NCBI GenBank assembly: GCA_022823365.1
Contig: JAJDXG010000019.1
Coordinates: forward strand, 1 to 64,000
Direction: 5' to 3'
DNA length: 64,000 nucleotides
Origin: Gemmatimonadota bacterium
GTDB taxonomy: Bacteria > Gemmatimonadota > Gemmatimonadetes > Longimicrobiales > Gaopeijiaceae
Below the pieces are notes generated by a model that did not search any database, was not told the DNA's origin, and saw only the letters and a program-made list of their open reading frames with translations. The number at the start of each line of letters is the position of its first letter. Position 1 is the first letter of the stretch. Made by a program: the position numbers and the translations under genes. Below are positions 1 through 1,298 of this stretch, piece by piece.

Positions 1-301
1 GTACCCGTGCTCCTCCCTGGACCCGTCCCACATGCACCGGGAGGCTCCCGAGGCTCCGAGGGCTATCGCACCATTTACTCAAATGACTTGCGGTGCTACC
101 CTTCGCGAGCGCCGCAAACCGCGGCTCCGGCGGACTCTCCCTTCGGGTGAAGCGCACCGCACGCAGCCACCTCTCCAGGTTCCCGATGCGACTTCCAGGA
201 CGTCACCCGTCTCGACACCTCCCAAGATCCGGACGCCGCCCGCGATCATTTTGGCGAAGGCCGCACCTTCGCGCCGGCGCCGAACCAGGGCATTTGCCCT
301 C
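1..301. other. Left-edge stretch without a recognised gene
   Basis: The dioxygenase reading frame stays open back to position 32, but the extra residues are arginine/proline-rich and resemble no protein family. I treat this stretch as the upstream region of that gene. A locally AT-richer patch around 70-90 could hold a promoter, but I cannot assign hexamers with confidence. Confidence 0.4.
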
Positions 302-1273
302 ATGACCCGGCATCCCTTCGACTGCGATTTCAGGGTTACCGCCGAGCAGAAGATCCAGTTCCGGCGCGACGGGTGCGTCAAGCTGGACGGATTCCTGAAC
401 GAGCAGGTACTCCGCATGCTGCGTGATCGGGTGGAAGTCGAGATGCAGCGGGAGACCGTCAACTCGACGACCCCCGCCCTCTATCGGGTGAAGTATGGCG
501 TGGAAGGCGACAAGGGCAGCGTCTTCGAACTGCTGGCGCGCCGTTACTTCCGGCAGACGCTGACCGATCTGACGGACAACGATCTCTTCTTTACGGGCGA
601 ACAGATCTTCGAAGTGGAACAGAACGCCGACATCGGATCGACCTGGCATGTCGGCGTGGACAGTTTCGGCTATCAGTACGCGGAAGAGTTCGGATGCACA
701 CTATGGGCGCCACTGCAATCGGTGAATACACGCGCGCAACGGGGAGGAATGGCATACGTTCCTCAACACGTCATTTCGGGAGAATGGGTTTTCGAACAGA
801 TCGAGCCGGCCCTCGTGTCCACACTCAGGGCCAAGGAGAAAGCGGGCATCAAGACGAGCACAGTCGACTACGTGTCCATGCGGCACGGCGTCCTCAATTC
901 GCCGGCGATGCTCGAGATACTTGAGAGCCACCGCGTCGAGGACGACTTCGAGCCCGGCGACGCGCTCCTGTTCAACAAGATGGTCGTGCATCGAGGCGTG
1001 GCGCTCGAAGAGGGCCCGCTTGCCAAGCGCGCGGCCTATGTGATGCGTTTCGTCGAGGCGGGATCGCGCTACGATCTACAGCGAGCGCGAAATCTCGACT
1101 ATCCCACCCAGCGGTACCGGACAGGCCTCTTCGCATACAAACCCCTCACTCGCAAGCCCATCGAAATCGCTGAAGCCGGAGCAGCGGACGGCGACCTCAT
1201 TTCGGAATGTGCGTACTTCGGTGACCCCGACCGTCGAATGCTCCGCCGTGAGCAGCGCCCCGAACGTGCATAG
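302..1273 (+). CDS. Phytanoyl-CoA dioxygenase (PhyH) family Fe(II)/2-oxoglutarate enzyme, HxG metal motif
   Basis: A 323-residue protein with the PhyH-type fold: an N-terminal substrate region, a proximal metal motif at H116-V117-G118, a distal histidine at H230 (VVHRG) and an arginine about 13 residues later that would bind 2-oxoglutarate. Classical members hydroxylate through an H-x-D...H triad. Here the Asp position is Gly, the pattern seen in Fe/2OG halogenases (H-x-A/G), although D120 lies close by. The ATG at 302 is chosen because everything upstream in frame lacks family similarity; no clear ribosome binding site is visible. The gene converges on the amidohydrolase gene with 25 bases between stops. 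The family call is firm. Halogenase versus hydroxylase is open and the substrate unknown. Confidence 0.8.
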   Translation: MTRHPFDCDFRVTAEQKIQFRRDGCVKLDGFLNEQVLRMLRDRVEVEMQRETVNSTTPALYRVKYGVEGDKGSVFELLARRYFRQTLTDLTDNDLFFTGEQIFEVEQNADIGSTWHVGVDSFGYQYAEEFGCTLWAPLQSVNTRAQRGGMAYVPQHVISGEWVFEQIEPALVSTLRAKEKAGIKTSTVDYVSMRHGVLNSPAMLEILESHRVEDDFEPGDALLFNKMVVHRGVALEEGPLAKRAAYVMRFVEAGSRYDLQRARNLDYPTQRYRTGLFAYKPLTRKPIEIAEAGAADGDLISECAYFGDPDRRMLRREQRPERA

Positions 1274-1298
1274 CTGCGGGTCTCGACGCGGGTAGAAA

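Follow-up and report, generated by a model that had tools for sequence, protein, structure and literature searches.

The open reading frame at positions 302–1273 of the forward strand encodes a 323-aa protein and lies near one end of contig C18: the window, namely the whole 64,000-nucleotide stretch analysed here, is the first 64 kb of this contig, and only 301 bases precede the gene. The open frame extends back to position 32, and the start common to homologues is M302. The protein carries the motif W115-H116-V117-G118-V119-D120, and the preliminary description of this frame, which had read H116-V-G118 together with a distal H230, is borne out by the alignment of these residues with BtnX and Cur Hal. 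The features discussed below are as follows:

302..1273, forward strand: coding sequence for a 323-aa homologue of the BtnX/Cur Hal-type Fe/2OG halogenases (match to BtnX in the PDB over the full length; homologues also begin at M302)
647..649 (cat), forward strand: H116, putative proximal iron-binding histidine (aligns with the WHVG of BtnX and Cur Hal)
653..655 (ggc), forward strand: G118, in the place taken by the Asp/Glu ligand in hydroxylases and presumed to be the halide site (nearly all homologues have Gly)
659..661 (gac), forward strand: D120, found only in the clade of the window protein; BtnX and most of the family have Gln (alignment)
989..991 (cat), forward strand: H230, putative distal iron-binding histidine (aligns with FNKxVxH(R/Q) in BtnX and Cur Hal)
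1028..1030, forward strand: R243, candidate 2-oxoglutarate-binding arginine, 13 residues past H230 (invariant in alignment A1; role presumed)
176..1292, forward strand: DNA stretch common to other phyla, taken as the transferred unit (DNA similarity; GC of the gene against that of the window)

When the PDB was searched by sequence (up to E 10), just two proteins matched, BtnX and Cur Hal, both of which are halogenases with WHVG. The best match was "Biotin halogenase BtnX" (9pv1/9q04; E 8e-112, residues 1–315, full-length), to which the window protein is 56.5% identical over the whole length, and the second was the Cur Hal domain of CurA (3nnf; E 2e-22, residues 87–263). The BtnX chain is residue for residue WP_012187119 of Dinoroseobacter shibae plasmid pDSHI01 (L040:10001-10930) and, by sequence identity, is D. 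shibae Dshi_3684. "Biotin halogenase" is the name given by the PDB depositors, from which the biotin activity of BtnX is taken here, and a literature search found no paper describing BtnX. The earlier assignment to the PhyH family corresponds to no more than a sub-threshold Pfam match: the PhyH model PF05721 scores 16.5 bits, below the cut-off of 22, and no NCBIfam model matched the 323-aa protein. A PhyH hydroxylase was rejected on the basis of this sub-threshold match and of the best hits, which are halogenases. The proposal of a candidate iron halogenase is largely supported, in that the two closest solved proteins are Fe/2OG halogenases sharing W-H-V-G and Cur Hal ranks first by fold. An HxG motif by itself is no proof of halogenation. 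The H-V-G motif is not a chance occurrence: the match to a solved halogenase in which it lies spans the full length, and nearly every homologue keeps G118. We consider it probable that the protein is a mononuclear-iron, 2OG-dependent halogenase of the BtnX/Cur Hal group, and that its gene was acquired alone by horizontal transfer. The family already has a named, solved member in BtnX, and the window protein joins this known family.

A double-stranded beta-helix fold is expected from the homology to the solved BtnX. The AlphaFold model of the window protein had a pTM of 0.66 and a mean pLDDT of 60 (60.2), with active-site loops below 50, and another model had a mean pLDDT of 54.9. Fold comparison of the former, a modest model, gave Cur Hal as the top match (Z 17.5) and, after it, further Fe/2OG enzymes, among them BesD, HalA, HalB and HalD; BtnX, SyrB2 and WelO5 were absent among the fold matches listed (structure library to April 2026). 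Confidence at the active site is low in either model, so the fold matches serve as supporting evidence only.

In the homologues examined, position 118 is Gly in all but two members, L017 (Asp, GAC) and L011 (Glu, GAG), which are 55% and 58% identical to the window protein, respectively. Gly is found in all close relatives (87–99%) and in the other members in which this position is intact, and it is kept in homologues linked to BioY, to polyketide synthases (PKSs) and to LysE. The alignment proposed earlier thus showed G118 to be nearly fixed. The preliminary description had also named homologues with Asp at 118 as evidence against its reading: one such protein, and one with Glu, do exist, whereas all of the 87–99% relatives and the remaining members argue the other way. 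Sequencing error is unlikely for either departure, given the coverages of 230 (L017) and 73 (L011) in the contig names. The tree requires two separate changes, and the carboxylates could represent natural restorations of the 2-His-1-carboxylate triad, as if it had been restored twice. The chance that both departures are Asp or Glu was estimated, by counting the outcomes of single-step changes, at about 1 in 30, which is suggestive only. Both genes, L017:8001-8975 (HVD) and L011:8001-8999 (HVE), adjoin SUP-like PKSs. Position 120 varies: BtnX and most members have Gln, Cur Hal has Gly, L046 has Thr and L017 has Arg, which makes Q/G/T/A/R/L overall outside the clade of the window protein, and Asp is confined to that clade. 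D120, which had been offered as an alternative metal ligand capable of overturning the halogenase reading, is therefore not favoured, since it is not conserved beyond the window's own clade; as a third metal ligand it was rejected as a feature of the family and retains a low probability for the window clade. As a separate observation, one genome (G592) carries a divergently oriented pair of family members (L104/L107) in a SUP-like cluster, one with an intact WHVG and the other, L107, with WQVG. The loss of the proximal His from this paralogue indicates that family members can decay, and L107 may be an inactive partner subunit.

Replacement of the carboxylate by Gly or Ala is an established mark of Fe/2OG halogenases (PMC8407142), in which the halide site is left free and the halogen is delivered to an aliphatic carbon by an Fe(IV)=O(halide) intermediate (PMC8407142, PMC4019311). 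By analogy, H116, H230 and 2-oxoglutarate would hold Fe(II) in the window protein, and the third facial site, left free at G118, would take chloride or bromide. Oxygen and 2-oxoglutarate would then generate an Fe(IV)=O(halide) species that abstracts a hydrogen from an aliphatic carbon, to which the halogen would subsequently move. The direct observations behind this scheme are the homology, the motif and its conservation, the patchy distribution across phyla and the PKS linkage of relatives; halide binding and catalysis in the window protein are what we infer. Halogenase chemistry is likely, the use of halide is suggested by homology and motif, and the protein very probably chlorinates or brominates a small molecule.

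The window protein falls in a well-supported clade of seven sequences from Gemmatimonadota (window, L002 and L007), Gammaproteobacteria (L003) and Acidobacteria (L004, L006 and L102). The stem of this clade is long (0.32 changes per column), and five changes, P114T, Q120D, S232G, M234A and F99G, are fixed in it at otherwise nearly invariant residues, of which P114 and S232 are common even to Cur Hal. Given these changes near the metal, the chemistry or the substrate of the clade could differ. The dN/dS between the window gene and the gammaproteobacterial and acidobacterial copies is 0.29–0.38, consistent with persisting coding constraint in the clade, and the value for the window–L007 pair, 1.2, rests on few changes. 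The gammaproteobacterial copy (L003:8001-8126; 90% identical) contains a frameshift near the N terminus, which is either a real lesion or an assembly error. In another genome (G200), the gene is split over two contig ends (the end of L007 and the start of L018) with about 45 codons common to both, an arrangement suggestive of an assembly that broke within a sequence common to several community members.

The DNA similarity of the window to other phyla is limited to approximately positions 176–1292, amounting to 93% to L003, from position 176, and 91% to the acidobacterial L004 and L006, from positions 266–273. The GC content of the gene is 60.7%, against 68.9% for the window, and the gene or a piece of it occurs in 4 of 121 genomes of the host's family, one of these being a fragment with a stop. 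Taken together, the confined similarity, the lower GC and the sparse occurrence make the window copy look like a single-gene horizontal acquisition. More distant relatives were not found at E 0.001 in a 38-genome sample of the host's family, and a further 40 genomes from the phylum to which the PKS-linked genome G304 belongs yielded no relative. A viral origin was rejected after two scans of viral contigs returned no relative. The gene would thus have entered the Gemmatimonadota lineage singly, from a pool that elsewhere adjoins SUP-like type I PKS clusters. On its 3′ side lie an amidohydrolase (Pfam) and then SusD-like and SusC-like genes, on the opposite strand (named by eye), and the near-identical copy in a congener (G161, L002; 99%) is preceded by FdhD, a MobA-like gene and DUF3500, with no biosynthetic cluster. 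The earlier remark that no biosynthetic cluster is nearby is accordingly right for this genome but does not extend to the nearest relatives, which are PKS-linked.

Among these relatives, those of 87–90% identity adjoin a type I PKS of about 3.4 kaa. Linkage of the halogenase gene and the PKS was found in 12 genomes from six phyla (G298, G299, G300, G301, G302, G304, G307, G308, G404, G436, G572 and G592), in varying gene order; the metagenome-assembled genomes (MAGs) concerned are assigned to Acidobacteria, Gammaproteobacteria, Dadabacteria, Nitrospinota, Gemmatimonadales and Acidimicrobiaceae and, judging from the MAG names and the PKS, would be sponge symbionts. The adjoining PKSs (3.4–3.5 kaa, 51–63% identity between phyla) have the domain order KS-AT-DH-cMT-ER-KR-ACP-KS-AT, and their loci contain a permease (PF00860) and a hydrolase in most cases, a PPTase in several and a Rieske oxygenase in three lineages. 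Sponge sup clusters likewise encode a type I PKS, with mid-chain-branched fatty acids as the proposed product (PMC4245539), and include the permease SupE (PMC3908369); the label "SUP-like" is based on this resemblance in cluster description, and published accounts describe small, monomodular Sup enzymes. In Nitrospinota (L097 and L098, in G402 and G404, and L010, in G303), the halogenase gene is duplicated in tandem and followed by a Rieske oxygenase; in G303 the first tandem copy is broken by a run of N. In the acidobacterial locus L005 (6414-7802), a flavoprotein matching the Trp_halogenase Pfam model precedes the gene, so that two halogenase-like enzymes may flank the PKS.

A second setting is found in Rhodobacterales: bioY-ecfA-ecfT comes after the gene in D. 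shibae, Pseudosulfitobacter, Stappia and Alexandriicola; in Roseovarius, bioY and ecfA come after it, and the record ends at that point. The D. shibae operon (Dshi_3684-3687) is carried on a 191-kb "killer plasmid," and a transposon insertion in Dshi_3684, listed as a 310-aa "2OG-Fe(II) oxygenase" with the insertion at 89405, abolishes the killing of a dinoflagellate, an effect that the authors explain by biotin depletion (PMC8831719). The BtnX gene occupies positions 89186-90118 of pDSHI01, and the insertion site is therefore inside it. Polar effects on the downstream transporter genes are possible, and a role of halogenated biotin in the killing is our own suggestion. In a third setting, homologues with 36–37% identity on plasmids of Pantoea, Klebsiella and Acinetobacter (L041, L042 and L045) are each followed by a LysE-family exporter; this branch probably has a different substrate, perhaps an amino acid. 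A further homologue, on a Streptomyces plasmid (L043:8004-10363), is followed by a protein annotated as GNAT, the second half of which resembles, by eye, an H-x-D-bearing Fe/2OG enzyme of the TauD type.

Three classes of substrate may be envisaged for the window protein. Biotin or a biotin-like acid, suggested by the nearest named enzyme, is tentatively placed foremost, short of an even chance; an acyl chain or product of a SUP-like PKS, suggested by the context of the nearest relatives, comes next in probability, and something else, suggested by the altered residues near the metal, is the least expected. A full account in terms of biotin would run as follows: a biotin-dependent host turns part of its imported biotin into a halogenated antivitamin that harms biotin-dependent neighbours. 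The identity of about 57% to BtnX over the whole length and the requirement of the BtnX gene for dinoflagellate killing (PMC8831719) are in its favour, as is the genome of the host, which contains one BioY (on contig C32) and no BioB above the cut-off and is thus probably biotin-dependent. However, no bioY-ecfA-ecfT operon adjoins the window gene, the only BioY being that on C32; the residues around the metal have changed in the window clade; PKS-linked relatives are nearer than BtnX; and the antivitamin step is conjectural even for D. shibae, for which biotin depletion was proposed. We hold this account to be doubtful. Next in order of probability, and similarly uncertain, is that the enzyme tailors an ACP-bound or free acyl chain in a SUP-like PKS pathway, acting here in trans on a PKS encoded elsewhere in the genome. 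Relatives at 87–90% and more distant ones adjoin the PKS in the 12 genomes in several gene orders, often with the permease, hydrolase and PPTase, and in three lineages with the Rieske oxygenase; Cur Hal works on an ACP-bound acyl group; and the host (G000) itself has a SUP-like PKS (about 3.46 kaa) with a permease and a hydrolase on contig C23 (L083, G000:C23:1-20000). Nevertheless, in both the host and the congener G161, which also carries the PKS, the halogenase gene is on a different contig and hence not beside it; two other congeners (G045 and G078) have the PKS, and no halogenase was found in them as far as searched; and the BtnX branch, judging by its name, uses the free vitamin.

Two other explanations are considerably less probable. 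The protein might be a hydroxylase whose iron takes its carboxylate from D120 rather than from residue 118. D120 is fixed in the window clade against the usual Gln, alongside other changes near the metal, and carboxylates at 118 do occur in the family (L017 and L011), but G118 is unchanged in the window clade and position 120 varies among Q/G/T/A/R/L elsewhere. Moreover, the usual carboxylate ligand is located at His+2, and in known double-stranded beta-helix sites a residue at His+4 is too distant along the strand; this explanation is improbable. It is slightly more improbable still that the gene is decaying after horizontal acquisition and has no present function. The sporadic occurrence in the host's family (including the fragment with a stop), the arrival without partners and the frameshifted L003 copy would fit such decay, whereas the open frame is intact in G000 and G161, the metal ligands are kept and the cross-phylum dN/dS is well below one. 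The preferred reading remains that of a halogenase of the BtnX/Cur Hal group.

What this analysis adds to the preliminary description is the PKS linkage across phyla, the members with Gly changed to Asp or Glu, the clade-specific changes near the metal and the identification of BtnX as a killing-operon gene. SUP polyketide synthases occur throughout high-microbial-abundance sponges, and branched fatty acids are their proposed products. The presence of a BtnX-type halogenase within SUP-like clusters of several phyla suggests halogenation of some of the products or a connection between the cluster and biotin chemistry. The identity of BtnX as the product of a dinoflagellate-killing gene makes a halogenated antivitamin a testable alternative to biotin depletion, and the natural Asp and Glu members provide ready-made pairs for studies of the halogenase/hydroxylase switch. 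It is tempting to speculate, although we think it rather unlikely as a whole, that the gene has been passed among at least six phyla of apparent sponge symbionts, mostly serving SUP-like PKSs and elsewhere making a halogenated vitamin (BtnX of the Dinoroseobacter "killer plasmid"), and that the window clade is a third form, with a new target and a reshaped pocket around the metal. In that case, sponge and algal microbiomes would commonly have halogenated antivitamins or halogenated SUP lipids among their chemical traits.

Among known systems, the window protein most resembles BtnX (9pv1, 9q04), with which it shares full-length homology, the HVG motif, the distal His and the Arg that follows it. 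By contrast, the BtnX gene belongs to a plasmid-borne bioY-ecfA-ecfT operon and the window gene stands alone, and residues 114/120/232/234/99 are P/Q/S/M/F in BtnX and T/D/G/A/G in the window clade. The LysE-linked homologues are of similar length and have an H-I-G motif (read for Pantoea and Klebsiella); their identity is 36–37%, and the LysE exporter on their 3′ side points to another substrate. BesD, HalA/HalB, SyrB2 and WelO5 are alike in chemistry class, the carboxylate being replaced by Gly or Ala, and gave no match in the PDB sequence search (up to E 10). Cur Hal (PDB 3nnf, 3nnj, 3nnl and 3nnm), which chlorinates ACP-bound 3-hydroxy-3-methylglutaryl, shares WHVG and FNKxVxH and is the top fold match; however, Cur Hal is a domain of a PKS, whereas the window protein is a free-standing protein of 323 aa without an HMG cassette nearby.
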